In this document: in pieces, positions 27,641-58,487 of the stretch | Position numbering within the stretch: the first letter of the stretch is position 1 | How the letters are laid out: each line of letters begins with the position of its first letter | Assembly (NCBI RefSeq): GCF_040703125.1 | Contig: NZ_CP160035.1 | Span: forward strand, 3,143,501 to 3,207,500 | Reading direction: 5' to 3' | DNA: 64,000 nucleotides | From: Flavobacterium ovatum | GTDB lineage: Bacteria; Bacteroidota; Bacteroidia; Flavobacteriales; Flavobacteriaceae | Translations under genes and position numbers: made by a program | The notes under the pieces: model-generated | The model's database searches: none | Told to the model about the DNA's origin: nothing | Seen by the model: only the letters and a program-made list of their open reading frames with translations

Positions 27641-27654
27641 TTTTAATAATAACC

Positions 27655-29208: not shown

Positions 29209-29235
29209 TCAAAAAAAACAATAAATTTTAACATT

Positions 29236-35013: not shown

Positions 35014-35056
35014 AAAATTCGGTTTGTCAAATATAATTCAAAATTTGTGCCTTTTT

Positions 35057-36079: not shown

Positions 36080-36082
36080 GCT

Positions 36083-36793: not shown

Positions 36794-36798
36794 ATCAG

Positions 36799-37437: not shown

Positions 37438-37441
37438 ACTA

Positions 37442-37468
37442 GACTAATTTAATTTTTAGTCGGTTTTT
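37442..37468 (+). terminator. Weak terminator-like hairpin (right copy)
   Basis: GACTAA/TTAGTC stem followed by GGTTTTT, same as at 18969. Weak. Confidence 0.33.
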
Positions 37469-37501
37469 AAACTACATTTGAATCCATATCTATCCCTTTT
37501 T

Positions 37502-38593: not shown

Positions 38594-38595
38594 CT

Positions 38596-39777: not shown

Positions 39778-39785
39778 CCATAACC

Positions 39786-40352: not shown

Positions 40353-40449
40353 GACTTTATATAGACCTGCAATCCTTAATTTTAGGATAAATAAAATCTT
40401 TATTCTGAATTAAAATACGGCTTTACACAAAAGTATAATTCATTCACTT

Positions 40450-41313: not shown

Positions 41314-41408
41314 GCGTAGATAATATTTTTTTATAGGAATATCGAATTCGCATTTCATTATTAGTGTTTGCGACCAAATCTAGACCATGTTCATTTCATA
41401 AGCGAATC

Positions 41409-41451
41409 GGAATTTTCAGGAATCCAAAGGAATTCTAGGAATCTTAGGAAT
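41409..41451. repeat. GGAAT phased repeats (right copy)
   Basis: Same five GGAAT boxes at 9-10 bp spacing as at 22936. The surrounding gap (41314-41722) holds no recognisable gene. Confidence 0.58.
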
Positions 41452-41722
41452 TCCCTGCTATTATCACTTCAAAACCTGCTGTTCTTTGCATCAGAATTTG
41501 TTGCTGTTCTATTTCGCGATAAGAACAAATGTACAAAACAACTTCTAAAAAAGTGTTGCTATACAGAACTGAATTATTATTCCGGGAAGTATAATAAAAC
41601 CGCTCTGTACCAGCGCACTTCACTTCCCAAAAAACTAGTAATCAATACCGTTAGGCCTTGAAAATTATTCGATTCTCATTATCGAACGGCCCAACCTATG
41701 TCCAATTTTTAAACTTAAAATC

Positions 41723-41944
41723 ATGAGAAAATTATTTTTTATTGCCGTTTTATCCGTGTCAAGCTTAGTTAATGCATCAAATGTTGTATTGAGTACAACA
41801 ACAACTTTAAAACCAATACTAACCTCCAAAAACAATGAAAAACATGTCGAAAAAGAGAGCTGTATTAGTGTCCTATTTATAGCAAACGATGGTCCTGGAG
41901 ATGGTGATATTATTATTTATCCTCCAAAAAGAAAAACAATATAG
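41723..41944 (+). CDS. Small secreted peptide precursor (right copy)
   Basis: Identical to 23250-23471: 73 residues with signal peptide, 47 bp before the TPR kinase gene. Confidence 0.6.
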   Translation: MRKLFFIAVLSVSSLVNASNVVLSTTTTLKPILTSKNNEKHVEKESCISVLFIANDGPGDGDIIIYPPKRKTI

Positions 41945-41990
41945 ACACATAGTCTAAAATTATTATTATTTTCGGGGAAAGTTACAGCTA

Positions 41991-43712: not shown

Positions 43713-43721
43713 TACTGTTTT

Positions 43722-44390
43722 ATGTTTACAAAAGTTTTAATTGCAGATGATATTGATTTCAATGATGTAGGTGCCGCCCAAATTCTAAACGAATTAGAGG
43801 TACTCGAAGTACAATATGCCAAATATTGTGACGAAGCCTTGCTGAAAATAAAAAAAGCACATCAAGATAATAATCCGTTTCAATTGCTCATCTCCGATTT
43901 GTCTTTCAAGGCAGATCATCAAGTCAACAAACTAAACTCAGGTGAGGAATTGATTCAAGCAGTCAAAGAACTCTTTCCAGAGATTAAAATAATTGCATTT
44001 TCTATCGAAGATCGTCCACATAAAATAAAAGGACTTTTTGATGATCTCAATATCGATGGCTATGTACTAAAAGGTCGCAATACTATTTATGATCTTAAAG
44101 TAGCAGTTCAAAAAACTTTTAACAATGAACCCGATAACATTTCGCCTGAATTGTTATACCTCATGCAAGACAAAACCACCAGCGAAATCAACCAATACGA
44201 TATTGTACTCCTCAAAAAACTCTCTTTGGGCATCAGCCAAGAAGGTATGGAAGCCGTTTTAAAACAAGAAGGCATCACTCCAAATAGCAAGAGCTCCATC
44301 GAGAAACACATCAATAAACTCAAAATATACTTTAAGGCCAACAACGCCACCCATCTAGTAGCCATTGCCAAAGATTTAGGCGTCATATAA
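43722..44390 (+). CDS. LuxR/NarL-like response regulator (right copy)
   Basis: Identical to 25249-25917, with phospho-acceptor D59. Confidence 0.87.
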   Translation: MFTKVLIADDIDFNDVGAAQILNELEVLEVQYAKYCDEALLKIKKAHQDNNPFQLLISDLSFKADHQVNKLNSGEELIQAVKELFPEIKIIAFSIEDRPHKIKGLFDDLNIDGYVLKGRNTIYDLKVAVQKTFNNEPDNISPELLYLMQDKTTSEINQYDIVLLKKLSLGISQEGMEAVLKQEGITPNSKSSIEKHINKLKIYFKANNATHLVAIAKDLGVI

Positions 44391-44413
44391 ATTTCCGTTT
44401 ATAATTGCCATAC

Positions 44414-44438
44414 AAAAGCTTCCTTCGGGGAGCTTTTT
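44414..44438 (+). terminator. Intrinsic terminator after two-component genes (right copy)
   Basis: UUCG-capped hairpin plus T-run, same as at 25941. Confidence 0.84.
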
Positions 44439-44476
44439 GTTGTTTATACCCTAAGTTAATTTAAGATAGCTTAAGT

Positions 44477-44592
44477 ATTTTGGGCGTGCCCCGCCAAAAA
44501 AAGCGGGTCGGGCTAAACGTTACAAGTCCTCAACAAGTTCCGCTATCGCTACACTTGTTTGTGGGCTTTCCTCTTTTATCCCTCACGCAAAA
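44477..44592 (+). repeat. Dispersed intergenic repeat, duplicated copy A
   Basis: Same element as 26004-26119. It lies in the gene-poor stretch 44391-45477, which otherwise contains only the terminator, two dyads and the lipopeptide ORF. Confidence 0.73.
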
Positions 44593-44852
44593 CAGCATTC
44601 AGCTAAACGATTTTGAATTTATAACAACGATTTTTAAATCGTACATGAAAGAGCAAATTGACAAAACATTTCATTATTTGTTTAGCATAAATAAGTGTAT
44701 TGGTTTCCTAAAATCCCCTCTGACATCAAAAAATGTTAATCAAATAGCTTAAATCTATCACCTAAAAGGTATTTCCCGCATACGCTCAACACTTAAGTCA
44801 ATGATTAACACAGAAAACAATTCCCAAAATTAACTTTTTCACATTTTTTTAC

Positions 44853-44881
44853 TGTGGTTACGGTTTACCGTAAGGAAATCG
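44853..44881. promoter_or_regulatory. Dyad motif TTACGG-N4-CCGTAA, copy 1 (right unit)
   Basis: Same as 26380-26408, 83 bp before the lipopeptide ORF. Confidence 0.48.
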
Positions 44882-44963
44882 TTTTTTATGAAGGTAATTT
44901 TACCAAAAATCAAGTCGTCATATTAAAATGAAGACGAGCTTATATCCTTAAAAACAAAATAAA

Positions 44964-45104
44964 ATGAGAATTTTTAAAAATCTAGTTGTCATAACTGCTT
45001 TAGTATTTTCTACTGTTATATTAATAAACTGTGAAGGAAGAAAAGGTAAAATTAATGCTTCAATCATAGAAACTTCTATTTCCCCTCCAGTTCCAAACAA
45101 GTAA
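44964..45104 (+). CDS. Putative 46-residue lipopeptide (right copy)
   Basis: Identical to 26491-26631; hydrophobic N-terminus with LINC lipobox-like motif and a short tail ending PPVPNK. Confidence 0.48.
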   Translation: MRIFKNLVVITALVFSTVILINCEGRKGKINASIIETSISPPVPNK

Positions 45105-45169
45105 ATTTTATAATTCATTCACAAAAAAATTAATTACCTACCTATTCACGATTTCAAATCCTTTTACTT

Positions 45170-45220
45170 AAATGAAGTTCATAAAACTTCATTTATAAAA
45201 GCTTCAAAAGTGGAAGCTTT
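45170..45220 (+). terminator. Tandem hairpins (right copy)
   Basis: Same two perfect hairpins as 26697-26747. Confidence 0.58.
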
Positions 45221-45244
45221 CTGGTTTTTCTGGTATTTAGTTTT

Positions 45245-45273
45245 TGTGATTACGGTTTCCCGTAAGGGAATGA
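45245..45273. promoter_or_regulatory. Dyad motif TTACGG-N4-CCGTAA, copy 2 (right unit)
   Basis: Same as 26772-26800, about 200 bp upstream of the complete Ter-type operon. Confidence 0.48.
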
Positions 45274-45374
45274 ATATTTATGGGGGTAGGTTTGGAGAAT
45301 AATAAAACAGAGGCACTTTTCAGCAAATACACACCCTATGTTTCTAAACAAAATTAATTCTAGTAAAAAAATTT

Positions 45375-45437
45375 CAGTGATGATCAAATTGAATGCTAGT
45401 GAATTAAATAATTTTCGCAAACCAATTCTGATCACTG
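45375..45437. promoter_or_regulatory. Imperfect inverted repeat upstream of the complete operon
   Basis: Same dyad as 26902-26964 (arms CAGTGATGATCAAATTG / CAATTCTGATCACTG), ending 40 bp before the HTH start. Candidate operator of the ten-gene operon. Confidence 0.4.
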
Positions 45438-45477
45438 CATTCTAGTTGCAGTAACGAACAGTATAATTGTAATCTAA

Positions 45478-45696
45478 ATGGATATTAGAATCATTATAAG
45501 AATACACAATTGCATAAAGAGCAGTTTAACTGGTACTCCTGGTGAACTTAGTCAAAGACTGGAAGTTTCTGAGCGCACTTTATACAATTATATTTCTTTT
45601 ATGAAGAACGACTTAAAAGCACCTATACAATTTTGTAAGATTAAAAGAACCTATGAGTATAAAGGAGAGTGTTATTTAAAATTTGAGCATAAATAA
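45478..45696 (+). CDS. Small HTH regulator, first gene of the complete Ter-type operon
   Basis: Identical to 27005-27223: a 72-residue stand-alone HTH protein (helix-turn-helix about 19-43). This copy leads the complete gene series: lipoprotein, vWA-like lipoprotein, TM protein, tubulin-like, Hsp70-like, second Hsp70-like, TerD, TerD, OmpA. All are on the plus strand with gaps of 6, 14, 27, 18, 10, 6, 129, 23 and 19 bp. Its place next to an inverted repeat suggests an autoregulating switch. Confidence 0.76.
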   Translation: MDIRIIIRIHNCIKSSLTGTPGELSQRLEVSERTLYNYISFMKNDLKAPIQFCKIKRTYEYKGECYLKFEHK

Positions 45697-45702
45697 AATA
45701 TT

Positions 45703-46113
45703 ATGGGTATTAATTTACAGAAGAAGCTAATTATAAAATTAAGATCAAAATTGATTTGTTTGCTTTTTATTTTAAGCCTTTCATCATGTCAATCTTTCAA
45801 GAAAGATAATTTTTTGAACAGCTTTGAATCATTTGTTAACGATGTTGAATTGAATAGTAAAAATTACAATAAAAAAGAATGGGCAGATTCAGATAAAGAA
45901 TATTATGCTTATGTCGAAATAAAATATCCTGAATTTAGAGAGACCATGACTGATGCGGAAATAAATACGACAAATGTATTAATAGGGAAATATCAGGCGC
46001 TAAAAATCAAATCAGAGATATTGAATATTAAACAAGGTTTAAATGATATTTTGGATCAAGCATCATCTTTTGCAAATGAAATCGTATCTGACACAACTTC
46101 AAATAATAAATAA
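45703..46113 (+). CDS. Small lipoprotein, possibly DUF6565-like (complete operon)
   Basis: Identical to 27230-27640: 136 residues, lipidated Cys29, helical mature part. In this copy it is followed by the full set of operon partners. Confidence 0.7.
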   Translation: MGINLQKKLIIKLRSKLICLLFILSLSSCQSFKKDNFLNSFESFVNDVELNSKNYNKKEWADSDKEYYAYVEIKYPEFRETMTDAEINTTNVLIGKYQALKIKSEILNIKQGLNDILDQASSFANEIVSDTTSNNK

Positions 46114-46127
46114 TTTTAATAATAACC

Positions 46128-47681
46128 ATGAAAAATTTCATAAAAATCAGCTTACCAATAGTCACTTTATTTTGTCTACAAGGTTGTTGTAAAAAAGAAG
46201 ATTCAAGTGCTTGGTCAAAATATAAGCCTCTAAACGAGATTGAAAAACATATTGAGGGATATTATGGTGCTTCATTAGGAGGAGAAGCTAATCCTAAAAC
46301 GGGTAATACAGCTGTGTTTGTAGACTTTTCAGACGGATTGATTCAGGCCTATAATAATAATCCTTCAAATGCTATTATCATTCAAGCAATTACAAACAAA
46401 CTTGTTAGTCCAGATATAGAGTGGTTTGCTTTGGGAAACTCAAAAATTACAAAGCTTGATTTAGCAAGTAATCAAATTTACAATAAAGTTACAGATCCCA
46501 AAGAATATAAAGATATAATGGCTCCAATTAAGGGTGCTCTGCAAAAAATAACATCTTCAAATAATGATGCATTATTAATTACCGATTTTGAAGAATATAC
46601 AGGTGATGGCAAAGAGCAATTCGAGAATTATCCTAAAGAATATTTTACAAATTGGTTGGCAAAGGGAAATTCAATTACATTTTTCTATACTGATTACTCG
46701 GAAATAAACAAAAAATCTGGAATTACTACTTCAAAACATCTCTATTATACAGTGTTTACTCACGGGAAGGCAACAGAAACAAGTATGGTTTCACAAATAA
46801 GAAATGCTTTAAAAGGAAGGGTAACAACTAAGATATTTGAATTAAATAATAGTCCATATACTATTTCAAATGACTATGGAGGTAAAGATAAAACCGGAAT
46901 AGCTAATAACACTTTATCACAAGTGGCAACAACTATTTTAAATGCATCTGCAGATAAGAATTTACCTTATGAAGTAATCGGTGTAGAAAATAATTGGGAT
47001 GATGGTTTAGATAAATATGTTCAAAATATAATTCAAAAAGAAAAAGGACTTTTTATGAATAAATTACTATTGAATGCATCTGATCAATCTTCTTATAAAT
47101 TAAAAAAGATAGCTGTAAAGGTTTATGATGTTTCCGATGATTTTGAAAAATATGCCCGTTGCAACAAAGCTAAAAATCATATTCCAGTTCTTACCAAAAA
47201 TGACAAAAAGGATTTGGTTTGGGATGAAAAATCAAAAAATGACCCAATTACTGTTGAATGCTACCAACCTAACGAGAAAACAATTGTACCCAACTACCTT
47301 TACAAATCAAAGGATTCAACTGCTAATGAATGGTCTGAAGTATTTGATGTTGATAGTGGAATATTCAATAGTCATTTAAAAAACGATCCAAAAAAAATCG
47401 AGCTAAAATTGATCTTTCATAAGAATTATAAAAAAGATAATTTTAAAAAAGAGGATGCATTAATTAGAATTGATTACATAATTGAAGATGTTACTTTCAA
47501 TGATACAAATCCCCAATTAAATGATTTTCAATGGACTTCCAGTACTGTAAGGGGAAATATTAATACTTCTCTATCAGAAGCTATACGAAACACTCTTCAA
47601 GATCCAAAAGTAAATCCAAAAAGCAAAATATTATATTCTTATTTCATAAAATTTGGAAATACTACCTCGACAAGTAATTAA
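46128..47681 (+). CDS. Lipoprotein with vWA-like domain (complete operon)
   Basis: Identical to 27655-29208: lipobox Cys20, vWA-like D66-x-S68-x-G70 and D153. It is followed 27 bp later by the intact three-TM gene, which could link this envelope lipoprotein to the cytoplasmic tubulin- and actin-like partners. Confidence 0.72.
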   Translation: MKNFIKISLPIVTLFCLQGCCKKEDSSAWSKYKPLNEIEKHIEGYYGASLGGEANPKTGNTAVFVDFSDGLIQAYNNNPSNAIIIQAITNKLVSPDIEWFALGNSKITKLDLASNQIYNKVTDPKEYKDIMAPIKGALQKITSSNNDALLITDFEEYTGDGKEQFENYPKEYFTNWLAKGNSITFFYTDYSEINKKSGITTSKHLYYTVFTHGKATETSMVSQIRNALKGRVTTKIFELNNSPYTISNDYGGKDKTGIANNTLSQVATTILNASADKNLPYEVIGVENNWDDGLDKYVQNIIQKEKGLFMNKLLLNASDQSSYKLKKIAVKVYDVSDDFEKYARCNKAKNHIPVLTKNDKKDLVWDEKSKNDPITVECYQPNEKTIVPNYLYKSKDSTANEWSEVFDVDSGIFNSHLKNDPKKIELKLIFHKNYKKDNFKKEDALIRIDYIIEDVTFNDTNPQLNDFQWTSSTVRGNINTSLSEAIRNTLQDPKVNPKSKILYSYFIKFGNTTSTSN

Positions 47682-47708
47682 TCAAAAAAAACAATAAATT
47701 TTAACATT

Positions 47709-48044
47709 ATGACAGCATACTTTATTTCAGCAATTTTTGCAGGAGCAATGATACTTCTAGCAGCATTTATCTCAAATTCTATCAAGTTTGAAGGAGGTAG
47801 CAATCCAACTGACCCTGGTAAAAGAAAAATGTGGTTTTGGATTATGGCTATAATTAATCCTATAGTTTGTTATACTATTGGATGGCTAGTGTTGGCTCCA
47901 AATGCAGAGAGTAAACAAATGCAATTTGATGAATATATGGCTGTGCTACCTATTGCAACAGTTGTAGGTTTCTTTATATACATTATTGCCGGGTTTATAC
48001 TAAGTAAAATTTTTATAAACGGTAAAGTAGGAAACTGGTTTTAA
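47709..48044 (+). CDS. Small three-TM membrane protein (intact)
   Basis: 111 residues with predicted membrane helices at about 4-22, 41-62 and 79-103. A short loop contains GGSNPTDPGKRK and another contains NAESKQMQFDEY. No family recognised. It lies between the lipoprotein genes and the tubulin-like gene, and is the only multi-pass protein of the operon, so an inner-membrane anchor for the complex is a fair guess. Base 47977, in codon 90, is where the duplicated block ends. Confidence 0.75.
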   Translation: MTAYFISAIFAGAMILLAAFISNSIKFEGGSNPTDPGKRKMWFWIMAIINPIVCYTIGWLVLAPNAESKQMQFDEYMAVLPIATVVGFFIYIIAGFILSKIFINGKVGNWF

Positions 48045-48062
48045 TATTAAAAAAAGAAAAAA

Positions 48063-49718
48063 ATGAGTCAAGATAAATTATTTGTTATAGCTATTGGGGG
48101 CACAGGAATGCGTTGCCTAGAATCATTTACCCACTTATGCGGTATTGGGATGTTCGACAATCAGGAAATTGAAGTTCTTACTTTAGATACTGACCAAACT
48201 AATGGTAATAAAGCTAAAGCTGAAGAACTCATTCGACTATATAATCGAGTGAAAACTTTTGGCTCAAATGAAGGAGGCACACCTAATGCCAATACATTTT
48301 TTTCAGCAAAATTAAACCTGCATAGATATTGGACAAATTACGCAGGATCTGGTAGAGAAAATTATAAAAATCTATCAAAAATATCCACAGGTGTACCTGA
48401 GCAGCAGCAAAAAAACAAACTTATATCTGATTTATTTTTGGATACTGATTCTGTGCAAGAATTTGATTTAGCTCATGGTTATCGTGCCCAAACTCACTTG
48501 GGTTCAATGCTTATGTATCATGGTATAATCGAAGCAGCACGTAATATCGCTAAAGGTGTTAATGTTCAACCCGAAGAAAAGGATTTGAACTCTTTCATGT
48601 CCAAATTAGAACAAGTAGGAGCTAATGCAAGGGTGTTTATTTTAGGATCTGTTTTTGGAGGCACTGGCGCATCATCCATACCAGTTATTCCCAAAGCTCT
48701 TCAAGAATTTATCAAAATTAGGTCCGGAGGTAAATCAGATATTGACTTCTCAAAAGTAAAGTTTGGAGCAACTTTACTAACTGAATATTTTACATTTAAG
48801 AAACCTGATAATAATCAAAAATCAACAAAACGAGATAGTGTAATCGCAGATTCTTCATTCTTTCCTTTAAATAGTCAAGCCGCTTTACAATTTTATCAAG
48901 GTGACCCTACGGTAAAAAAGACTTATAAAACTTTATACCATATTGGTTGGCCCATAGTAAGTAAAAAAGTAGACGAAGAAGGTAAAGAAAAAACAGAAAC
49001 AGGCGGAGCAAATCAAAAAAACCCATGTCATATCACTGAGCTACTAAGTGCTTGTGCAGCTTATGATTTTTTCACACGTAAAAAAGGAATGGATGATTCA
49101 ACTGCAGATGCTGAGTATGTATACAAAGCAGTCGAATTTAAAAACAATTCTTTTAATTTTTCTTTTAATGACTTCGTTGGTAATGAAAATAAAGCTGGGG
49201 AAACTTTTGCCAATAGATTAGGAGCCTTTTTCTCATTGGCACATATATCTCTAACCGTAAATAAAGCTTCTACTGGGGATTCTGGAATAAGAGGTTTTAT
49301 TACTAGATGCGATCAACAAAAATTAACCCAATATAATTCTATTTCTGATGACGATTGTGATGATATAAATAACTATTTCAAACAATTTGCCTACACTTTT
49401 GAAAATGAAAAGTTTATTCCAGGTTGGCTGTATCAGATTAGAAATACGGTTGCTCCAGGAACATTTATGTTTGATAGTAAAGCTTTCCCTGACACCTCCA
49501 GTGAATTAAAAAAATTAGATGTAGGAACATTATTTAGTGATGCTAAATATCACTGGCCCAAGGGGAGAATTATGTCAGATCGGTATGACACTTTCGTTAA
49601 AGACCAGCTTATAAAACAAAATTACAAAGAAGAGCAAAAAGTATCGACTGTTAAAGAAAAATTTATGGCACACATTTATAATGCCATTACTGAATCTCAA
49701 GCAGAATTAACAAAATAA
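48063..49718 (+). CDS. Tubulin-like domain protein (Tubulin_2 type)
   Basis: A 551-residue cytoplasmic protein. Residues 8-17 (VIAIGGTGMR) and 190-205 (GSVFGGTGASSIP) match the two glycine-rich nucleotide loops of the FtsZ/tubulin fold. The second is the GGTG variant of the tubulin signature, and LTLDTDQTN at 39-47 fits the strand-3 ribose-contact region. Sequences of this kind are grouped as bacterial tubulin-like proteins (Pfam Tubulin_2). The C-terminal ~250 residues are unrecognised. Polymerisation is unknown. It sits 10 bp before a giant Hsp70/actin-like gene, so one operon carries both tubulin-like and actin-like NTPase folds. Confidence 0.82.
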   Translation: MSQDKLFVIAIGGTGMRCLESFTHLCGIGMFDNQEIEVLTLDTDQTNGNKAKAEELIRLYNRVKTFGSNEGGTPNANTFFSAKLNLHRYWTNYAGSGRENYKNLSKISTGVPEQQQKNKLISDLFLDTDSVQEFDLAHGYRAQTHLGSMLMYHGIIEAARNIAKGVNVQPEEKDLNSFMSKLEQVGANARVFILGSVFGGTGASSIPVIPKALQEFIKIRSGGKSDIDFSKVKFGATLLTEYFTFKKPDNNQKSTKRDSVIADSSFFPLNSQAALQFYQGDPTVKKTYKTLYHIGWPIVSKKVDEEGKEKTETGGANQKNPCHITELLSACAAYDFFTRKKGMDDSTADAEYVYKAVEFKNNSFNFSFNDFVGNENKAGETFANRLGAFFSLAHISLTVNKASTGDSGIRGFITRCDQQKLTQYNSISDDDCDDINNYFKQFAYTFENEKFIPGWLYQIRNTVAPGTFMFDSKAFPDTSSELKKLDVGTLFSDAKYHWPKGRIMSDRYDTFVKDQLIKQNYKEEQKVSTVKEKFMAHIYNAITESQAELTK

Positions 49719-49728
49719 ATTTAAAAAA

Positions 49729-52700
49729 ATGGCAGATAATCAAATAAAGGCACTTGCTATAAAAGTTCAGACCAAAGATGAACCAAGTGGTGTGCAATAT
49801 GCTTGGGACAAAATACCTCAAATACAGGTTTTTACAAAAAACATTGTTATTCCTGAAATTGCAGTTGATAAAGATGGAAATACATCAGTAGATATCGGAT
49901 CTATTGTATCTGGTATGCCCACCGTATACGCTAGAGCCAATTTGTTTAGAAATGCCTTGGATAACGTTACGGATATTAAAGCTGAGGCGACAGGCCTTAT
50001 GCTTTTCTACAAATCATTAATAAGTGAATGGAAAGGTTTTATAAGTTGCATTGCATTAAACTATAAAGATTTTGAAATAGAGAGAGTTCATTTGTCTTAC
50101 ACTGATGGTAAGACAATAATGGACACGGAAAATATTTATGAACCAATTGGTGCTTTTGGCAATGTGCTTTTTGAACGAAAACCTTTATGGTGTGACCAAT
50201 CCTTATCAAATAATGCCGACAAAATTCCATTTATAGATGTTATTAAGTTTAAGGGTGACGTAGTTGGGGGAACATCTCCTGATTCATTCCTATTCACTTC
50301 AGTATCATATAAAATAAAAGAGAAACTACCTTTTATTAACGTTACTAATGGCAAGTTTATAGATCCTTTACAATCTGATTTAAACTTTGAAGAACTTTCA
50401 AATATTTATGGATATGCTAAGCATATCCTAAATAATATTGAAAAATTCAGATACAACTATAATGGTTTAGAAGAGTATTTAAAACCAGATTACAGCAATT
50501 TATCAGGCTGCATCCAAAATTGGATGTCTGACATGATCAAATATCAAGAAACAAAAGGATACCCGAGGTTAGATAACCCTACTCCTCCAGAAGTTGGTTC
50601 AATTTTCCATTATCCTTTTAACCTTCTTTTTAATTATTCTACAGAATTGTATGGTTTAGACGGTCAAATTTCTAGTGATGCTACTGAGGGTAGCATTGCA
50701 TTTGATCCCAAAGACCTCTTGTTACCTGATACTACCGAAATTGCCCGAATAAGATTTGGAGGTGCAGAAATAAAAAATTATTTAAAATCAAAACCAATTC
50801 TATTATTAGAAGCAACAACCTTAGGCCAGCCAAACGACTATAGCTTTTTTACATTGCCGCTAACTCCATTAGCCTTAAATTTATTTGGTTCGCAGCTTGA
50901 TGCATTAGTTGGTTTAGATGACAATTCGAATGTAAAATCAAGAATAACAGCAATATATGATCCTAATGATAAAGATGGTGAAAAATTAACTGTTAAACTG
51001 AATCTGTATACTAAAACTGGGGCTTTAATAACAAAAGAATTAAAATACAATGTAAATCACGAGACTATCAAAGGTAAAGATATATTGATGTGGCCGAACT
51101 TTATTTCAAAACAATGGAATAGATATTTCCTTTATTCGGAGATCCCTCATAATGATATAAAATTTCAGGCAACTCCTTTCATTGGCGATGTTAATGACCC
51201 TTACTTTAGAATTATTTTAGATGAAAAAGGAGTTCCTGTTTATCTTGCTGATAAAGGAAAATCGACTTTACTTGCTGATAAAAACAGTAAAAATATTAAA
51301 TTTGAATTGCATGTTAGTTCAAATCCTGCTATCGCAGACAACGCCTACAAATACGAAATATACGAGAGTAATCAACCTTTTAAAGGAATAAAGTTTGCAT
51401 TCAATGGTATCGATTGTGGTTTTGGAATTATAAGATATCATGCTACTGATAATACAGTTTTACCACATAATATGCTTTCTATTACTAAAAATTTAATTGG
51501 AGCTAAATTAGGTGTAGATTTTGGAAGTACTAATTCATCTGTGGCTTATTATTCTGAAGGGACAAATTCCGTTTGCGATAATCTTATATTAAAGAACAGA
51601 AGGGTTTCTCTACTTTCTGATGATGCAAAAAATAATGATGAAAGACCAGCGGTTGAAGACGAAATTTTCTTTTTTCAAAATGATGAAATAATTACCAATT
51701 CAATAAAATCAGTTCTAACTATCCATGATACAAGAAGATTGGTAAATGAAGACAATATATCATCTGATTCTTTGGCTTCACAAATTGTAAAAGGAGGATT
51801 TCCCTGCTTTGAAAAAAACCTACCAATTGAAAGTGCTCAAAACAATTTATATACTTTAAATTATAATAGAGCTGGAAAAGCTGAAATAGTTTACAACATG
51901 AAATGGTCGACTCAAAGTATCGACAAAAGTTATAAAAAGGCATATTTAAGCTCTTTGCTGCTACATGTTTATGCTCAGCTTTTTATAGAAAATCATGAAC
52001 CAAAAACATTAAAATGGTCTTACCCGTCCTCAATGGGCAAAGATTTATTATCAACCTATCGCGGTATTTGGGATTCTTTAAAAGAAATTAACCCAATTAT
52101 AAGTGACTCCAAGCCATTAGTCATCTTTCCTCCTTCAGATCTTTCAGATCTTGGTGATACTTCTTCAGAAAACTCTTGGAGTAGCGAAGGGAATAAGGAA
52201 AATTCTAGCTGGGGACCATCTGATAGCGGCAATAACAGTTGGGGTACTGCACCAGAGTCTATACTAATGCCAGTGGATTCAGGCTGGGGTGATAGTAATA
52301 CGAAGCAAAATGTAAGTACAGTAGTTGATATTGCTACTGAAACTAGTCCAATCCGTTTTGATTTTAAAGAATTAGATAATGAAGAATCTTTAACTGAAGC
52401 TTGTGCTGTAGCAAATTATTTACTTAGACCTGGAAAAGGTATAGAATTAGGACCAGATGAATTAGTCCTTTGTTTTGATATCGGTGGAAGTACTACAGAT
52501 ATATCTGCATTATGTCAAATGAGTGGCGGAAAGGCGATGATTAAGCAAAATTCGATCCGATTTGCAGCGCAACGCGTTGCTGATGCAACTAGGTATTCAC
52601 CAAACTTCAAATCGGTGTTATTGAAAATGTGTGAAAGGAAAAAAATTAAAATTGAAGGATTAAATACTCCCAATAATAAATTTACAGAAAATACAGCACC

Positions 52701-53607
52701 CTATTATTTTGAACAAGTGGTAGATAGATTAGATGCGACTGATTTTGATGATTTTTATAGACTAATAGCTGCCGAATGTAAAGAGATGATGAGTGTAAAC
52801 TTATACGTCACGGGTATGATTATGTTTTACGCAGGCCAGCTAACGCAGAAATTAAGAACCGAAATTGTTAAATCTGAGGATGCTCCCGCAGCTGTTAAAG
52901 CTCTTGCGCCCAAAATAAGAATAGCATTTGCAGGTAAAGGAGCTAGGATTTTTGACTGGTTCAATGCTGTGAATCCAAAAGCCGCAAATGACTACTATAC
53001 ACAAATGTTCATTAGAGGTATTGGAGGTGAGGCTGTAGCAAGAATAACTATTAGACCTATAAGCATAAATCCGTTACAAATTATAGACATCAACGGACAA
53101 AAATCTGACAATAATGTAGATGTAAAATATGAAGTGTCAAAAGGTTTAGCAATTCCAACAGATCAAACAAGAATATTAGTCCCTAGAAATAAAACTGCAA
53201 TTGAAGTTTTAGGAGAAGAGAATTTTTGTATTGTAACTTCTACCGGAGAATTCAAATACCTAGAATCTTCTAATTCCATTACCAATGAAATGATGGAAAA
53301 TATAGGTGAGTCATTTATTTGTCTTCCTCCACAAGGTAAGCAACCTTGTCCTAGGTTCATGGATTTTGCTGATTTATTTTATAAAGTGTCCTCTTCAATG
53401 TTTGGACTGAAGATGAGCCAAAATGAATTTATGGCTGGCTTTCTTGATATGAATATAGTAAATTATATTAAAGGAGAATCAGAATTTATAGAAGCACAAA
53501 AGAGAAAAAAAGATCAGAAGAAATTTGACTACGTAATACCTATAATTATTTTAGAAGGTATGAAATTTTTTGAAAATCATTTGATGAAAGCAATTCGTAA
53601 TTCTTAA
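49729..53607 (+). CDS. Giant Hsp70/actin-like ATPase with long N-terminal domain
   Basis: 1292 residues, no signal peptide. The first ~590 residues form a unique, beta-rich region I cannot assign. An ASKHA nucleotidase follows: phosphate-1 LGVDFGST at 594-601, phosphate-2 DIGGSTTD at 917-924, and an adenosine-type FAGKG motif at 1067-1071. Between the two phosphate motifs is a low-complexity insert (about 808-870) with four Trp-Gly/Ser repeats such as SSWGPSDSG and NNSWG. The key catalytic signatures are intact, so ATP binding is likely. It resembles SrfB-type proteins in size and layout, but that name is only a guess. It lies between a tubulin-like and a second, degenerate Hsp70-like gene. 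Confidence 0.8.
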   Translation: MADNQIKALAIKVQTKDEPSGVQYAWDKIPQIQVFTKNIVIPEIAVDKDGNTSVDIGSIVSGMPTVYARANLFRNALDNVTDIKAEATGLMLFYKSLISEWKGFISCIALNYKDFEIERVHLSYTDGKTIMDTENIYEPIGAFGNVLFERKPLWCDQSLSNNADKIPFIDVIKFKGDVVGGTSPDSFLFTSVSYKIKEKLPFINVTNGKFIDPLQSDLNFEELSNIYGYAKHILNNIEKFRYNYNGLEEYLKPDYSNLSGCIQNWMSDMIKYQETKGYPRLDNPTPPEVGSIFHYPFNLLFNYSTELYGLDGQISSDATEGSIAFDPKDLLLPDTTEIARIRFGGAEIKNYLKSKPILLLEATTLGQPNDYSFFTLPLTPLALNLFGSQLDALVGLDDNSNVKSRITAIYDPNDKDGEKLTVKLNLYTKTGALITKELKYNVNHETIKGKDILMWPNFISKQWNRYFLYSEIPHNDIKFQATPFIGDVNDPYFRIILDEKGVPVYLADKGKSTLLADKNSKNIKFELHVSSNPAIADNAYKYEIYESNQPFKGIKFAFNGIDCGFGIIRYHATDNTVLPHNMLSITKNLIGAKLGVDFGSTNSSVAYYSEGTNSVCDNLILKNRRVSLLSDDAKNNDERPAVEDEIFFFQNDEIITNSIKSVLTIHDTRRLVNEDNISSDSLASQIVKGGFPCFEKNLPIESAQNNLYTLNYNRAGKAEIVYNMKWSTQSIDKSYKKAYLSSLLLHVYAQLFIENHEPKTLKWSYPSSMGKDLLSTYRGIWDSLKEINPIISDSKPLVIFPPSDLSDLGDTSSENSWSSEGNKENSSWGPSDSGNNSWGTAPESILMPVDSGWGDSNTKQNVSTVVDIATETSPIRFDFKELDNEESLTEACAVANYLLRPGKGIELGPDELVLCFDIGGSTTDISALCQMSGGKAMIKQNSIRFAAQRVADATRYSPNFKSVLLKMCERKKIKIEGLNTPNNKFTENTAPYYFEQVVDRLDATDFDDFYRLIAAECKEMMSVNLYVTGMIMFYAGQLTQKLRTEIVKSEDAPAAVKALAPKIRIAFAGKGARIFDWFNAVNPKAANDYYTQMFIRGIGGEAVARITIRPISINPLQIIDINGQKSDNNVDVKYEVSKGLAIPTDQTRILVPRNKTAIEVLGEENFCIVTSTGEFKYLESSNSITNEMMENIGESFICLPPQGKQPCPRFMDFADLFYKVSSSMFGLKMSQNEFMAGFLDMNIVNYIKGESEFIEAQKRKKDQKKFDYVIPIIILEGMKFFENHLMKAIRNS

Positions 53608-53613
53608 GTATAG

Positions 53614-54951
53614 ATGGCATTTTGTGTACTAATAAAAATTTCAAAGTATAAGGTTTCTTTTTGGTATCAATCAGAAAGAAACTCTTATGCACCATTAATA
53701 CTGAATGATTTAAACGAAATCCCATTATATTTTTATGTAAATGGAAATGATTTTATTTTTGGAAATACTGTAGCCAAAGATCGCTTTAATTCTAACCACC
53801 CAAATGCGTTCGGAAATTATTTTGAAATCATAAAAAACCCAACGCAACATTTTAATATTTATGGTAACGCAAAACCAGTTAAACAATTGCTTTATTATGG
53901 AATAGAGCAGTATTTATCTCATTTTATCAATGCTATTTTGTTTAAAAATGATTCCATTGAATCCTATAGACAAAATTTCCCCCTACGTTTTTGGTTTGAC
54001 ACAGATTTAGAAGAAAACGAAAAATCTTTAATCGAAAATCTGTTTTTAGAAGCAGGTTACGATAATGTTGAAAGAGTTAATTTTAACGAGTCTCTAATAG
54101 AAACATTAACCATTAATAGTGTTATAAACAGTAATATGTCTGTTTTACTACTTAATGGCATCGATAACAATTTATATCTAGAACTCTTTAAAAATATAAA
54201 AGAACCAGCGCAGGGCTTTTCAAAATTATTAGGTCAGGGTTCAGATCTAAGGATAAATATTTTAGCAGATATGATTCTTGAAGATATACTTGCGCAGAAC
54301 TCTTACCTAACTTTAAACAAGGAAAATGAAATCGCAACGCTACTCTCTATTTCATCTGAGTTATTAGAAAAAAGTACTACAATAATAAAAGGGAATGCAA
54401 CTTTAACTAATGGAAAACAATATTATTTTGAAGTAAATAAAATTAGCTTGAATGAAAGATTATTGTACTCATCAAATGACAGCATCATGTACGCTGCCAT
54501 CGATGATATATTAAACTCAAATAGCGTATCCATTAACAATACAATTATACTGTTAGGTAGTAAAGGAATAAATACTTCTTATTTATTGAAAAAATTACTA
54601 AGTAGATACCCAAATGTAAAAGGCGTAGAAACATCAAATAGTAATGATGCTATGAAATTAATTTTTTCTAAAATAGGCCAATCGGGATACGTAGCAATAA
54701 AAAATAAGGCCTTAAAAACCCCAATTATTAATATCCCACCCCCTAGCCAAAGTACTAAAACAGTTGTAAGTGCAAGTACAATAATAAATACGCCTCCAAT
54801 TATAAATGTGCCACCAAGAATAAAAACACCACCTGTAATAAAAACAGAAAAAAAGACAACTTTACCACCTCTTCCAGATATACCCAAGTTAATACTGACT
54901 ACTAAAAGTAGTAAATCACCTCCACCACCTCCACCAATTCCTAAGAAATAA
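53614..54951 (+). CDS. Degenerate Hsp70/actin-like protein with proline-rich tail
   Basis: 445 residues. The order of segments follows an Hsp70 nucleotidase domain: an N-terminal hairpin (VLIKISKYKVSFWY), IPLYFYVNGNDFIFGNTVAK, a central FPLRFWFDTDL-LFLEAGYDNVERVNFNESL that mirrors the Hsp70 'aGf..v..inEp' block, VLLLNGIDNNLYLELF at 177-192, and IILLGSKGIN at 321-330. Yet the DxGTT and DxGGGT phosphate loops are missing, so it probably does not hydrolyse ATP. Residues 369-445 are a tail of PP motifs ending in six prolines. It starts 6 bp after the giant Hsp70-like gene. The fold match is my reading of the pattern and needs structure prediction. Confidence 0.68.
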   Translation: MAFCVLIKISKYKVSFWYQSERNSYAPLILNDLNEIPLYFYVNGNDFIFGNTVAKDRFNSNHPNAFGNYFEIIKNPTQHFNIYGNAKPVKQLLYYGIEQYLSHFINAILFKNDSIESYRQNFPLRFWFDTDLEENEKSLIENLFLEAGYDNVERVNFNESLIETLTINSVINSNMSVLLLNGIDNNLYLELFKNIKEPAQGFSKLLGQGSDLRINILADMILEDILAQNSYLTLNKENEIATLLSISSELLEKSTTIIKGNATLTNGKQYYFEVNKISLNERLLYSSNDSIMYAAIDDILNSNSVSINNTIILLGSKGINTSYLLKKLLSRYPNVKGVETSNSNDAMKLIFSKIGQSGYVAIKNKALKTPIINIPPPSQSTKTVVSASTIINTPPIINVPPRIKTPPVIKTEKKTTLPPLPDIPKLILTTKSSKSPPPPPPIPKK

Positions 54952-55080
54952 AAAGGTTACAAATAAGGGAATAGGGATTTAGTATCAACCTATTGTCATT
55001 TGGAAATAGAGGTTGCTTTTAACACAAGTAAAAGTACTTCAAGTCAATGTCAAAACATAAACAATCTTAAAAAAAATATT

Positions 55081-55641
55081 ATGATAAATCTAGAAAAGAA
55101 AAAAACAATTAACCTAACAAAATCAGCTCCTTCACTAAGTAAAGTTAGAGTTGGTTTAAGTTGGGATGATGTACAAATTAATGGAAAATCACCCGATTGC
55201 GATGCTTCAGTTTTCATGCTTGGCGAAAACGGAAAAGTTCCTGCTGATGGATATTTTGTTTTTTTTAATAACCTTATTAGTGAAGACAATTCTATTACAC
55301 ACAATGGTGATAACAGAACGGGAGCTGGTGATGGTGACGATGAGACAATAGATATAAATCTTTCACAAGTAAGCCCATTATGTGTTCAAATGATCGTTAC
55401 AATTACAATACATAATATGGATGAGGGTTTTAATTTTGATACTGTAAGTAAACCGAGTGTTCGTATTTATAATAGTGCTAATAATTCGATTATTTGTCAG
55501 TATGAATTAAGTGAGAGTTTTTCTGGTTGTGACTCACTAATTATCGGACGCCTCTATAGAAAAGGGACAGATTGGGAGTTTGAAGCAATGGGTCAGGCAT
55601 TTGCAGGAGGGCTTGAGGCAACTGTAAATTTGTATTGTTAG
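55081..55641 (+). CDS. TerD domain protein 1
   Basis: 186 residues from the ATG at 55081. The open frame starts at 55000, but the first 27 residues do not fit the family. It has the TerD/CABP beta-sandwich: a shortened N-terminal hairpin (INLTKSAPSLSKVRVGLSWD), the conserved D41-A-S-V-F, ADGYFVFFNN, the acidic calcium loop around 76-88 (GDNRTGAGDGDDE), and the FEAMGQAFAGG end. TerD proteins bind calcium and occur in tellurite and stress resistance operons. Here the partners are cytoskeleton-like. A 129-bp gap precedes it, the largest in the operon, so an internal promoter is possible though none is obvious. Confidence 0.9.
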   Translation: MINLEKKKTINLTKSAPSLSKVRVGLSWDDVQINGKSPDCDASVFMLGENGKVPADGYFVFFNNLISEDNSITHNGDNRTGAGDGDDETIDINLSQVSPLCVQMIVTITIHNMDEGFNFDTVSKPSVRIYNSANNSIICQYELSESFSGCDSLIIGRLYRKGTDWEFEAMGQAFAGGLEATVNLYC

Positions 55642-55664
55642 TAATAAATTTAATATAAATAATT

Positions 55665-56318
55665 ATGAGTAGTTTTAATTTAAGTAAAGGTGAAAGATTT
55701 TCTCTTAGCAAGTCAGCACCAGGTTTATCAATTGCACGTATAGGAATGGGTTGGAATCCAAATGAAGAGCCAAATGGACCTGATTTTGATTTAGATGTTT
55801 CTGCATTTGCAATTAATAGCAACTATAAAATCCCATCTGACACTTATTTTGTTTTTTATGGTCAAGTTCGCATGGGAAATTGCATCGAAGATGAAACAGA
55901 AAAAGGTTTTTCTAGACCAATTACTGCGGATAAATCGATTTTGGGTGCTATTGATGACCCCGACGGAAGAAGAAGTGATGGAAATGATGATGAAGATATG
56001 ATTTTTGATTTGTCAAAAGTAAACTCTGATATTGAGCAAATAATCATCTGTGCTTCAATTTGTAAATATCCACATGATAATAAAAAAGATAAAAGGACAT
56101 TAGCTCAAAACTTTGGGATGGTCGATGACTGTTATATTAGGATAATAAATGAACAAACTGGAGAGGAAATTGTACGTTATGATTTAGCTAAGCAATTCAT
56201 TAATGAAGATGCCGTTGAATTTGGTCGTTTATTCCGAGTTGGAAATACATGGGAGTTTGAAGCCATGGGCAGAGCACATGACGGAGGTTTGCAAACACTT
56301 GTAGATATGTATACATAA
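55665..56318 (+). CDS. TerD domain protein 2
   Basis: 217 residues, typical TerD length. N-terminal hairpin FNLSKGERFSLSKSAPGLS, the hallmark FDLDVSAF at 41-48, SDTYFVFYGQ, an acidic calcium loop DDPDGRRSDGNDDED at about 97-111, and a C-terminal FEAMGRAHDGG. All predicted calcium ligands are present, unlike some degenerate paralogues. It is 23 bp after TerD 1 and 19 bp before the OmpA-domain gene. Its N-terminal FNLSK motif is echoed at the start of that OmpA protein. Confidence 0.93.
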   Translation: MSSFNLSKGERFSLSKSAPGLSIARIGMGWNPNEEPNGPDFDLDVSAFAINSNYKIPSDTYFVFYGQVRMGNCIEDETEKGFSRPITADKSILGAIDDPDGRRSDGNDDEDMIFDLSKVNSDIEQIIICASICKYPHDNKKDKRTLAQNFGMVDDCYIRIINEQTGEEIVRYDLAKQFINEDAVEFGRLFRVGNTWEFEAMGRAHDGGLQTLVDMYT

Positions 56319-56337
56319 TTAACTTAAAATTTATACA

Positions 56338-57120
56338 ATGGCATTCAACTTAAATAAAAGTGAAGAATCAAAGGGAAAATTTGATTTATCAAAAAATAAT
56401 ATTGAAGCAGCTGGAACTTATTCTGAACCAATAATCGAAAAACCTGGGAAATCAAAAAAATGGTTGTTTGTATTGGCTGGCTTAATCTTAATAGGTGGTG
56501 CTAGTGGGTATTTCTTATTAGCTTCAAAAGACTCTAAGAATATTACAAATGAGGCTACATCTATTTCTCCAATTAAATCGTTTCCTGATGAGGAAGGATT
56601 ATCTAATGCTACAGGTGAAGTAAAAGACAGTTCTAAAGGCTCTAATGAAAGTATTCCAAGTGATGATAACCTCAGAAATAGAAATTCTGAAGCAAAATCA
56701 CCCTCGAATAATGCAAAAACGGTTCTACCACAAACGAATGAAACTTCTGCAATCGGAGCAAATTCAAACAGTGGAAATTCTTCAAATGATTTACCATATA
56801 AAAATGGAGAATATTATAATATCTATCAATTTCCTTTTGGTGTAGCAAACTATACTTCTTCAAATGTTGAACTTGATAATTTAGTAAATGTATTAAGGAA
56901 AAATCCAGAATTAAAGATTTCAATAATTGCATATACTGACAACATTGGAGATGCGATTGTGAACCAAAAACTTTCTGTTAAAAGAGCAAAAGCTATTTTT
57001 AATTATATTGTTTCGAAAGGAATCATTGCTGAAAAAGTTTCCTATGAAGGAAAAGGTATTTCAACAAAATATGCAACTCAGGGCGAAAACCGAAGAGCAG
57101 AATTTATAATTAGAGGTTAA
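56338..57120 (+). CDS. Single-pass OmpA-domain protein with TerD-like N-terminal motif
   Basis: 260 residues. The cytoplasmic N-terminus (1-40) opens with MAFNLNKSEE and KFDLSK, which copies the start of TerD 2. A membrane helix spans about 41-62. A Ser/Asn/Glu-rich periplasmic linker runs to about 155, followed by an OmpA-like peptidoglycan-binding domain. In it, D201 in AYTDNIG, R216 in VKRAKA and R252 in NRRAEF match the diaminopimelate-binding residues of the family. The protein therefore ties the inner membrane to the wall, as MotB- and TssL-type proteins do. It is the last gene of the operon, ahead of a strong terminator. Confidence 0.87.
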   Translation: MAFNLNKSEESKGKFDLSKNNIEAAGTYSEPIIEKPGKSKKWLFVLAGLILIGGASGYFLLASKDSKNITNEATSISPIKSFPDEEGLSNATGEVKDSSKGSNESIPSDDNLRNRNSEAKSPSNNAKTVLPQTNETSAIGANSNSGNSSNDLPYKNGEYYNIYQFPFGVANYTSSNVELDNLVNVLRKNPELKISIIAYTDNIGDAIVNQKLSVKRAKAIFNYIVSKGIIAEKVSYEGKGISTKYATQGENRRAEFIIRG

Positions 57121-57134: not shown

Positions 57135-57164
57135 AAGGAGTATCTGCAAAAACAGATACTCCTT
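57135..57164 (+). terminator. Terminator of the Ter-type operon
   Basis: A perfect 12-bp stem (57135-57146 with 57153-57164, AAGGAGTATCTG) over a 6-nt A-rich loop, 14 bp after the OmpA stop. The T-tract downstream is weak, but the hairpin is strong. Confidence 0.75.
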
Positions 57165-57488: not shown

Positions 57489-58487
57489 ATGAATCAACAT
57501 CCCATTTTCTCAGAACATCCCGGCTTGATTGCAGTATTTGCAGTAGCTATTATTATAATGCTATTATTAGATCTAGGCTTATTTAGTAAAAAAAGTCACG
57601 AAGTTTCAAATAAAGAAGCTATTTCTTGGTCTCTAGTATGGATATCATTGTCCATGTTATTTAGTGGTTTAGTATACTATTATGCGGGACCTACAAAATT
57701 TTATGAATTTCAATCAGCTTACTGGATTGAAAAGGCTCTATCAGTTGATAATTTATTTGTATTTATCTTAGTCTTTAAATTCTTTGATGTAGCTAATAAA
57801 AACAAACATAAAGTCTTGTTTTATGGAATTATAGGAGCATTAGTTTTAAGAGCAATTTTTATATTCTCGGGGGCTTTCTTAATAGAATTGACATATTTAA
57901 ATAAAATATTAGGCTACTTTGGAGTTTCTGGATTTACTTACAACATAAATATAATTATGACCTTGTTTGGTTTGTTTCTAGTATATGCAGGAATTAAATC
58001 CTGGTCAGCTGGCGACGAAGACGATAATGAAGATTACAATGATACTAGGGGCGCTAAAATGATACGAAGAATTTTCAATGTTAGTGATAAGTATGATGAC
58101 GATAAGTTTTTTACAATTCAAAATAGTAAAAAATTAGCAACTCCATTATTAGTTGTTGTAGCTGTAATTGAATTCACTGATTTGCTTTTTGCAGTAGATT
58201 CAATACCAGCAATTTTCGCCATTTCTAGCGACCCGTTTATTCTATATACATCTAATATCTTTGCAATTTTGGGACTTAGAGCCTTATTTTTCTTATTAGA
58301 TAATTTTATCCACTTATTTGGTAAATTGCAATATGGATTAGCATTAATTCTATCATTTATAGGTGTCAAAATGATTATTTCTCCTTTTTATCATATTGAC
58401 TCTGTATACTCATTGATTGTTATTGCTAGTGTTTTATCGATTTCAGTACTAGCTTCAATGATGTTTCCTGAACCTATTGAAGCCTAA
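57489..58487 (+). CDS. TerC/Alx family membrane protein
   Basis: A 332-residue integral membrane protein with about eight to nine helices. Both TerC signature segments are present: EKALSVDNLFVF at 81-92 and EFTDLLFAVDSIPAIFA at about 218-234, whose acidic residues are thought to handle a metal such as manganese. An acidic cytoplasmic loop (AGDEDDNEDYND, about 174-185) lies between them. It follows the TerD/OmpA operon but is separated from it by a strong hairpin and 368 bp, so it is probably expressed on its own. Its linkage to terD genes is the usual Ter-system context. Confidence 0.94.
   Translation: MNQHPIFSEHPGLIAVFAVAIIIMLLLDLGLFSKKSHEVSNKEAISWSLVWISLSMLFSGLVYYYAGPTKFYEFQSAYWIEKALSVDNLFVFILVFKFFDVANKNKHKVLFYGIIGALVLRAIFIFSGAFLIELTYLNKILGYFGVSGFTYNINIIMTLFGLFLVYAGIKSWSAGDEDDNEDYNDTRGAKMIRRIFNVSDKYDDDKFFTIQNSKKLATPLLVVVAVIEFTDLLFAVDSIPAIFAISSDPFILYTSNIFAILGLRALFFLLDNFIHLFGKLQYGLALILSFIGVKMIISPFYHIDSVYSLIVIASVLSISVLASMMFPEPIEA

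Follow-up and report, generated by a model that had tools for sequence, protein, structure and literature searches.

A tubulin- and Hsp70-like gene core with exchangeable tails, and a short tag common to TerD and OmpA-domain proteins, in Flavobacterium ovatum and other Bacteroidota

A ten-gene operon on the plus strand of Flavobacterium ovatum joins a five-gene core, encoding a vWA-like lipoprotein, a small membrane protein, a tubulin-like protein and two proteins with predicted Hsp70-like parts (1292 and 445 amino acids, aa), to a tail which is exchanged among relatives and which here comprises two TerD genes and a gene for an OmpA-domain putative wall anchor. The operon lies at positions 45478-57120 of the window, the whole 64,000-nucleotide stretch analyzed here, in a genome of 4.25 Mb assembled as a single contig. 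The Ter-type tail seems to be held together by a five-residue tag common to TerD and the wall anchor. An earlier sequence-only reading of the stretch had recognized the operon and most of its domains; it had missed the exchange of tails, the additional fold of Hsp70 type, the tag held in common and a tandem duplication reaching into the operon head.

A fixed core with an exchangeable tail

A scan of a species-genome collection with the 551-aa tubulin-like protein as query recovered 174 relatives, of which the best 80 loci were retained and their gene content counted with iterated profiles. The labels on these loci are those of Bacteroidota groups, with the exception of L056 (Saccharibacteria), whose tubulin is identical to one from a Bacteroidales record. 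The order of the core genes is kept in 80 of 80 loci, with all five present in 68, four in 9 and three in 3; some loci end at contig edges, where many of the missing core genes would fall, and split or doubled frames occur in L041, L076, L078 and L082. As this gene order recurs in every retained locus, the operon is not a chance assemblage. Homologues scattered without conserved linkage had been named beforehand as the outcome that would count against the sequence-only reading, and that refutation fails because the linkage is very strong. The second such outcome, a lack of tubulin and actin folds in the 551-aa and 1292-aa proteins, was addressed at the level of sequence. The 80 loci share kinship, such that the locus and tag counts given here are not counts of independent events.

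Downstream of the 445-aa gene stand either TerD genes or two genes encoding proteins of about 400 and 600-880 aa. The latter type was scanned against Pfam in two loci, L045 and L063, where it matches DO-GTPase (PF19993, 8.9e-7 and 7.6e-8, over the cut-off; in L063 also PF19975, 5.9e-10, over the cut-off) followed by GAP1-type domains under the cut-off (GAP1-N2, 1.4e-4 and 0.018; GAP1-M, 0.0044); the DO-GTPase and GAP1 calls were extended to 14 loci by profiles built from three loci. The same profiles find no DO-GTPase or GAP1 match in the six frames of the window. By this tally 50 of the 80 loci carry a TerD tail, 14 a GTPase tail, none both within the stretches examined and five neither, while eight lack the 445-aa gene and three stop at a contig edge; two of the five (L042 and L080) have TerD genes by eye beyond the reach of the tally rule, giving 52 TerD-tail loci. 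In all 52, TerD follows the 445-aa gene on the same strand, with the first TerD gene starting less than 250 bp away in 47 and further off in five, mostly after a GYF-domain gene. Two TerD genes and an OmpA gene are present in 46 of the 52, and OmpA-labelled genes are confined to loci with a TerD tail. Profile counts over the 80 loci are 53 for TerD, 50 for OmpA and 15 for TerC. On a tubulin tree of 68 loci, some long branches of which make parts unsure, the GTPase label requires four changes, at least three of them forced by well-supported branches. The operon tail is exchangeable on a fixed core.

A set of 14 more distant loci (tubulin identity 28-32%) extends this pattern. Most contain genes for a lipoprotein-like, a small membrane-type, a tubulin and an approximately 1150-aa protein in the same order, the first two being assigned by position, size and eye in the absence of a profile hit. 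The 1292-aa profile matches nine of the 14 and its motif is visible in 12, while the 445-aa profile gives no hit on any of these 14 cores. Nine of the 14 encode a MotB-like protein whose membrane helix has an aspartate close to its beginning. The genus of the window has both tails, with the TerD type and TerC in L100 and L101 and the MotB type in L102-L105.

Three further loci show unusual arrangements. In L004 (15553-18258) a homologue of the 445-aa protein is fused to a complete Hsp70 (PF00012, 2.3e-87, residues 394-883), and a 731-aa protein without a Pfam match follows in place of the TerD tail. In the GTPase-type operon of L053, a TIR gene (12980-13364; TIR_2, 1.4e-6) lies directly downstream of the GAP1-type gene. 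L075 has a GTPase-type core with, next to it on the opposite strand (2772-6009, minus), a TerD pair and vWA-like genes; one of these vWA-like genes was scanned and matches PF00092 (2.8e-13).

A tag common to TerD and the putative wall anchor

The N-termini of the TerD proteins contain two short strand-like motifs, for example FNLSKGERFSLSK, with the lysine of the first motif conserved in 99 of 99. The N-terminal tail of the OmpA-domain anchor, ahead of its membrane helix, repeats this five-residue motif; in the window it reads FNLNK and FDLSK by eye. A matrix built from TerD five-mers only and then run on the other genes of the loci is the test to trust, since the first regular expression for the tag was written after the tails had been seen. 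This matrix finds the tag in 47 of 49 OmpA-labelled genes as against 12 of 511 other genes (the total is 49, not the 51 of the regular-expression count, two genes having been relabelled GAP1 and GYF). The OmpA tails hold 91 tag sites, compared with a mean of 0.96 and a maximum of 4 in 1000 shuffles; 88 precede and one follows the first membrane segment, with four genes lacking such a segment. The two untagged OmpA genes are one outside the operon (L030) and one with leucine-led versions of the motif by eye (L037), while two of the 12 tagged other genes are operon members standing in the OmpA place (L038 and L040). Two of 72 445-aa genes have the tag by the matrix, and no gene of the 1292-aa, tubulin, membrane, lipoprotein, GTPase, GAP1, TerC or ATPase families does. 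The tag thus travels with TerD and, therefore, TerD rather than the core would be its likely partner.

The GYF-labelled proteins in the TerD operons of L028, L033, L037, L040 and L080 also begin with a TerD-like tag, detected by the matrix in four of the seven GYF-labelled genes and by eye in all seven; those scanned (L028, L033, L040 and L080) match GYF_2, and three also match DUF805. In L038 the OmpA place is held by a protein (18319-19569) with bacterial TSP3 repeats and CW_7, in which the matrix finds three N-terminal tags.

The tag has a second dialect. A protein search with the OmpA protein of the window as query gave 34 hits, which were reduced to 28 independent homologues on excluding the query, two shared sequences and three unrelated OmpA proteins: 13 have the FxLxK tag, 13 a LKxKVTLKRK-type motif, and two apparently lack the N-terminus. 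A phylum search returned two of 395 genomes over a strict limit, one being that of the window, and led to one complete locus, L108. It has the same core (tubulin 2.6e-134, 1292-aa 2.9e-179, 445-aa 1.2e-8), and downstream of this, at 7016-8455, are encoded an OmpA anchor that opens with MSDNVTLKRK and a 192-aa protein whose first residues are MSEITLKRKVTLRDK, both in the second dialect (VTLKRK). No Pfam family matches the 192-aa protein, yet in a profile comparison its family aligns with TerD at E 1.1e-5 (probability 82%), as against E 0.23 with the 445-aa family, and many of its members are named tellurium resistance proteins by one source. Among the best 120 of 215 relatives of this protein, the second motif is present in 119 and the first is absent from all. 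Of the 6,917 open reading frames (ORFs) of the loci collected before L108, none longer than 100 aa shows the second motif within its first 25 residues. The anchor and its TerD-like partner are hence read as having changed dialect together. A search for further second-dialect loci gave one of 98 genomes, which was L108 again; the L108 TerD-like protein had eight hits in viral contigs, none of them confirmed, and no match among phages and plasmids.

Proteins of the operon

The ten proteins were scanned against Pfam and judged by its curated cut-offs (Table 1). The TerD and OmpA calls of the sequence-only reading hold firmly at this level. TerD is a calcium-binding family, and the first TerD protein matches the solved TerD structure 2kxt (7.6e-45); a genome-wide search finds two TerD genes only, both in the operon. 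A regular expression for the peptidoglycan-binding residues of OmpA, probably too strict, is satisfied by three of the 49 OmpA-labelled genes.

Table 1. Features of the window, in window coordinates, with the evidence for each
Feature	Position	Strand	Evidence and occurrence
Helix-turn-helix (HTH) protein, 72 aa, operon gene 1	45478-45696	+	HTH_11 6.7e-6, over cut-off
136-aa lipoprotein, DUF6565, accessory	45703-46113	+	PF20203 8.4e-10, over cut-off; 10/80 loci
517-aa lipoprotein, likely divergent vWA domain at about 56-229	46128-47681	+	structure model; 76/80 loci
111-aa membrane protein	47709-48044	+	hydrophobic stretches by eye; 78/80 loci
551-aa tubulin/FtsZ-like protein	48063-49718	+	PF00091, PF13809; 80/80 loci (was query)
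1292-aa protein, N-terminal region of unknown fold, predicted Hsp70/actin-like part from about 585	49729-53607	+	motifs; 79/80 loci
445-aa protein, predicted Hsp70 nucleotide-binding-domain fold	53614-54951	+	structure model; 72/80 loci
TerD 1, 186 aa, tags INLEK and INLTK	55081-55641	+	PF02342 3e-59, over cut-off
TerD 2, 217 aa, tags FNLSK and FSLSK	55665-56318	+	PF02342 8.9e-47, over cut-off
OmpA-domain protein, 260 aa, one membrane segment by eye	56338-57120	+	PF00691 4.1e-13, over cut-off
Hairpin of 12 pairs, operon 3' end	57135-57164	+	100-nt stretch fold z = -6.44
TerC family membrane protein	57489-58487	+	PF03741 1.2e-46; 368 bp 3' of operon
Truncated second operon head: HTH, DUF6565 lipoprotein, 517-aa lipoprotein, first 269 bp of 111-aa gene	27005-29504	+	tandem duplication

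The tubulin-like call for the 551-aa protein is sustained by matches to Tubulin (PF00091, 3e-5) and Tubulin_2 (PF13809, 7.8e-4; 19.2 bits, cut-off 27), both under the curated cut-off. Two GGTG motifs, an FGGTG and an N-terminal GGTG, are invariant among 12 divergent members of the family and come near to, without being identical with, the tubulin loop GGGTG(S/T)G. The 1292-aa protein matches the Pfam HSP70 family at E 0.098 only, and PDB sequence profiles return for its alignment one mitochondrial Hsp70 at E 0.79. The motifs GxDFGxxN (595-602) and FDxGxxTxD (916-924), which we take to be the ASKHA phosphate-1 and phosphate-2 motifs, are invariant over 35 rows of the family alignment, and an hhalign comparison with DnaK aligns the phosphate-1 motif (E 0.0013, 18 columns). 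By its motifs, the C-terminal part would thus be an Hsp70/actin-like ATPase with intact motifs, in agreement with the earlier call.

The 445-aa protein has no Pfam match, and by its structure model, of low confidence in the tail from about residue 360, supplies a second Hsp70-type fold in the operon. Profile comparisons of its family were negative both against that of the 1292-aa protein and against DnaK, so that its kinship to Hsp70-type proteins is argued from the fold. In an alignment of 36 rows inspected by eye, the phosphate-loop consensus is absent and one column is invariant; it is probably a dead ATPase with degenerate phosphate loops.

The 517-aa lipoprotein likewise lacks any Pfam match; its model and a D66-x-S68-x-G70 pattern resembling a metal ion-dependent adhesion site suggest that it may have a divergent vWA domain, which gives the vWA-like call of the sequence-only reading weak support. 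Compared with PDB sequence profiles, the alignments for the 445-aa, 517-aa and tubulin-like proteins returned no significant match. The 111-aa membrane protein has weak Pfam matches only. The HTH profile finds a match in one of the 80 loci, L003, the nearest relative.

Operon layout and flanking duplication

All ten ORFs are intact, begin with ATG and contain a single stop codon each, and are separated by gaps of 6, 14, 27, 18, 10, 6, 129, 23 and 19 bp in order, which bears out the compact plus-strand operon, headed by the HTH gene, that was described from the sequence alone. The strong hairpin placed at its end is likewise real (Table 1); no T run immediately follows it, and it does not figure in the output of a terminator scan of the window. 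Promoter-like matches are near chance (69 against 63.3 expected, standard deviation 9.2), and a tRNA search of the window found none. The TerC gene beyond the hairpin has counterparts downstream of the operon in L100 and L101.

The operon head overlaps a tandem duplication of 11033-29504 (18,472 bp) and 29505-47977 (18,473 bp), whose copies are 99.995% identical, the second being one base longer. Its left end falls inside a gene which we take to be pfkA-like, an intact copy of which lies at 10723-11757, and its right end inside the 111-aa membrane gene; therefore, 27655-29504 holds another copy of the 517-aa lipoprotein gene together with a cut membrane gene. A close relative has a single copy of the lipoprotein gene, and the 18.5-kb duplication could reflect either recent amplification or an error of assembly.

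Distribution and probable mobility

The system is rare and patchy. It is found in 7 of 397 genomes of the genus and in 14 of 392 of the phylum, 12 of these phylum matches covering most of the protein (one interrupted by a stop) and the remaining two being short and inside very long frames. The nearest named relative at the operon is Flavobacterium sp. 28A, with a 99% identical tubulin; in the tree of tubulins its sequence represents the window and pairs with one from Prolixibacteraceae, and hence a transfer between families is suggested, as if the core had moved between them. An empty-site search revealed no shared site by eye, and the TerC gene and an upstream histidine kinase, found in 115 and 116 of its 120 genomes respectively, are both widespread. 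Among viral contigs, 68 pattern hits to tubulin relatives yielded none that was confirmed.

Plasmids contain tubulins 26-29% identical to the query in five cyanobacterial records, none spanning more than 80% of it. Two loci, L096 and L097, are on cyanobacterial plasmids typed mobilizable, with the tubulin and a protein of about 1100 aa annotated as hypothetical or tubulin-like. In two such plasmid loci, the latter protein, downstream of the tubulin, matches the 1292-aa profile (3.2e-14 and 3.4e-13), and a small, apparently hydrophobic protein is encoded upstream of the tubulin.

Relation to known systems

The sequence-only reading had called the meeting of tubulin-like and Hsp70/actin-type genes in one Ter-type operon unusual; a lack of any precedent for such neighbourhoods is not supported, as related ones are described in the available passages of two earlier surveys. 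Makarova and Koonin (2010; PMC2875224) describe FtsZ-like-1/Tubulin_2 operons that join tubulin-like, vWA and OmpA genes, and the passages concerned resemble the present case in the divergent tubulin with vWA and OmpA neighbours, the patchy distribution and the GTPase gene of some relatives. Of these neighbours, OmpA is present here by a strong match (4.1e-13) and the vWA-like protein by a weak, model-based call. Unlike those operons, as far as the same passages go, TerD and Hsp70 partners are present here, and the tubulin-like protein falls under the PF13809 cut-off. A 2023 study (PMC9871819) set Tubulin_2 proteins aside as sparse and irregular, in the part available.

The survey of Kaur et al. 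(2020; PMC7159879) treats GTPase-centric systems with tubulin and with HSP70 as separate themes, and in its available passages the tubulin theme is said to occur in firmicutes and actinobacteria only, with TerD named once, in another system. Its GAP1-N2 systems are approached by the 14 of 80 relatives that place DO-GTPase and GAP1 genes beside the tubulin/Hsp70-like core, with a vWA-like protein too. These 14 loci, however, are titled Bacteroidota, in contrast to the lineages given in those passages, and the window has TerD-TerD-OmpA where DO-GTPase and GAP1 would stand.

Ter components have been proposed to form sub-membrane structures against phage (PMC7824862, in the passages available), and the TerD domains, the TerC gene close by and the vWA-like protein recall the Ter systems described there. 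The tubulin/Hsp70-like core and an OmpA anchor with TerD-type tags set the operon apart, and no further Ter component (TerB, TerF/TerY, TelA, PRTase/HAD enzymes) has a Pfam match among its ten genes. As for Zorya, several distant cores have MotA/MotB-type proteins matching the ZorA and ZorB profiles of PADLOC: ZorB is hit by seven of eight MotB/OmpA-type candidates (7.4e-8 to 1.8e-27) and ZorA by the MotA-side candidates of L091, L094, L095, L102 and L105 among seven (5.7e-9 to 2.6e-5), the ZorA hits lying partly along coiled-coil stretches. By contrast, PADLOC finds no ZorA in the operon of the window, and its OmpA domain is a weak ZorB hit (5.9e-5). The literature search, covering titles, abstracts and passages and hence no proof of absence, found no paper linking TerD to a core of tubulin-like type or reporting the shared tag.

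Proposed function and alternatives

A membrane- and wall-anchored NTPase machine, as first conjectured for this operon, is reasonable as an inference. More specifically, we give about an even chance to a mobile, modular stress or conflict system, anchored in the envelope and switched by nucleotides, whose tagged TerD proteins would gather on the wall-anchored protein. The core would couple the vWA-like lipoprotein, outside, and the membrane protein to a cytoplasmic platform of tubulin-like, Hsp70-like and pseudo-ATPase proteins, with the nucleotide-binding proteins inside, and this platform would drive an exchangeable output, here the TerD pair and the single-pass OmpA-domain wall anchor. Envelope damage or an invader might alter the lipoprotein or the local Ca2+ as the trigger, upon which the nucleotide switches could release or load TerD; TerD might then build up beneath the inner membrane on the OmpA-domain anchor via the strand-like tag repeated in both. 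The outcome would be a wall-anchored patch that seals damage or blocks entry, and the nearby TerC or P-type cation ATPase could reset the ions. The TerD output and the neighbouring cation transporters suggest Ca2+ or a metal as the signal, and a role in conflict, which we infer along with direct binding through the tag, the assembly and its trigger, is suggested by the alternative tails belonging to predicted or known conflict systems (Zorya, and those in the available passages of PMC7159879). Whether defence or envelope stress is the main use cannot be told from sequence.

A bolder version, tentative and with less than an even chance, is that the tandem five-residue tags of TerD, the anchor tail and the GYF adaptors dock to form a Ca2+-gated, wall-anchored array, as one swappable output of a tubulin/Hsp70 platform used across conflict systems, with dialects co-evolving for specificity.

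Several observations weigh against the proposed stress or conflict system. The tag might simply duplicate one strand of the TerD fold for some other purpose; it appears in its first form in only 13 of the 28 independent anchors, which counts against a single universal tag, and the co-switch of dialect comes from one complete locus. Foldseek found no vWA hit at E<=0.001 for the 517-aa model, and the ASKHA assignment of the 1292-aa protein is drawn from sequence motifs. PADLOC assigns no defence family to any of the five core genes, and the tubulin shares 72-85% identity with its close relatives across several families (best 120 matches), which is more conserved than would be expected of defence genes. 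The ZorA profile did not match two of the seven MotA-side candidates (L088 and L090), and both Zor profiles are also hit by MotA/MotB-like and coiled-coil proteins of other kinds. Finally, the occurrence of cation transporters beside 23 of 50 TerD operons (TerC 15, P-type ATPase 8; one of each Pfam-checked) versus none of 14 GTPase operons is biased, because the longer GTPase tail shows less downstream sequence.

The same transporters and the high conservation of the tubulin relatives speak for a housekeeping-like, non-immune system of metal and envelope stress, in which TerD would serve as a buffer or sensor of Ca2+, metal would be transported by TerC or the P-type ATPase, and the envelope would be strengthened by the core under ionic or membrane stress; the available passages on Bacillus subtilis TerC proteins, which take part in metalating exported enzymes and show Mn efflux activity (PMC10550928), point the same way. 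This alternative is nonetheless somewhat unlikely, given the very patchy spread within one genus and the swap with DO-GTPase/GAP1 (in one case with TIR) and distant ZorAB-like modules, which suggests conflict. Jug phages of Bacteroides, according to the part available of PMC12363816, have TerD-related genes together with a calcium P-type ATPase.

It is improbable that the operon is a cytoskeletal system for membrane remodelling or vesicles, as proposed for FtsZ-like-1 operons, with tubulin-like filaments shaping the envelope and the rest regulating them. The set of tubulin-like, vWA-like and OmpA genes matches that of PMC2875224, but in the passages available that proposal rests on gene context, its authors having recognized no filament-forming elements in the FtsZ-like-1 family, and it leaves the TerD and GTPase tails unexplained. 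Very doubtful is the notion that the TerD-OmpA tail is an independent Ter cassette, repeatedly inserted behind the core and not working with it, for while the tail has been exchanged several times, TerD occurs in phages (183 of 50,697 records) and the TerD genes of L075 neighbour a GTPase-type core encoded on the opposite strand, TerD follows the 445-aa gene on the same strand throughout the 52 TerD-tail loci, and closely in 47 of them.

Under the proposed stress or conflict system, the tag shared by TerD and the anchor, with its co-switched dialect, would offer a concrete, bench-testable assembly rule for Ter components. Further, one tubulin/Hsp70 core links Ter, GTPase/GAP1 and MotA/MotB (Zorya-like) modules, and these may therefore be alternative outputs of the same switch.

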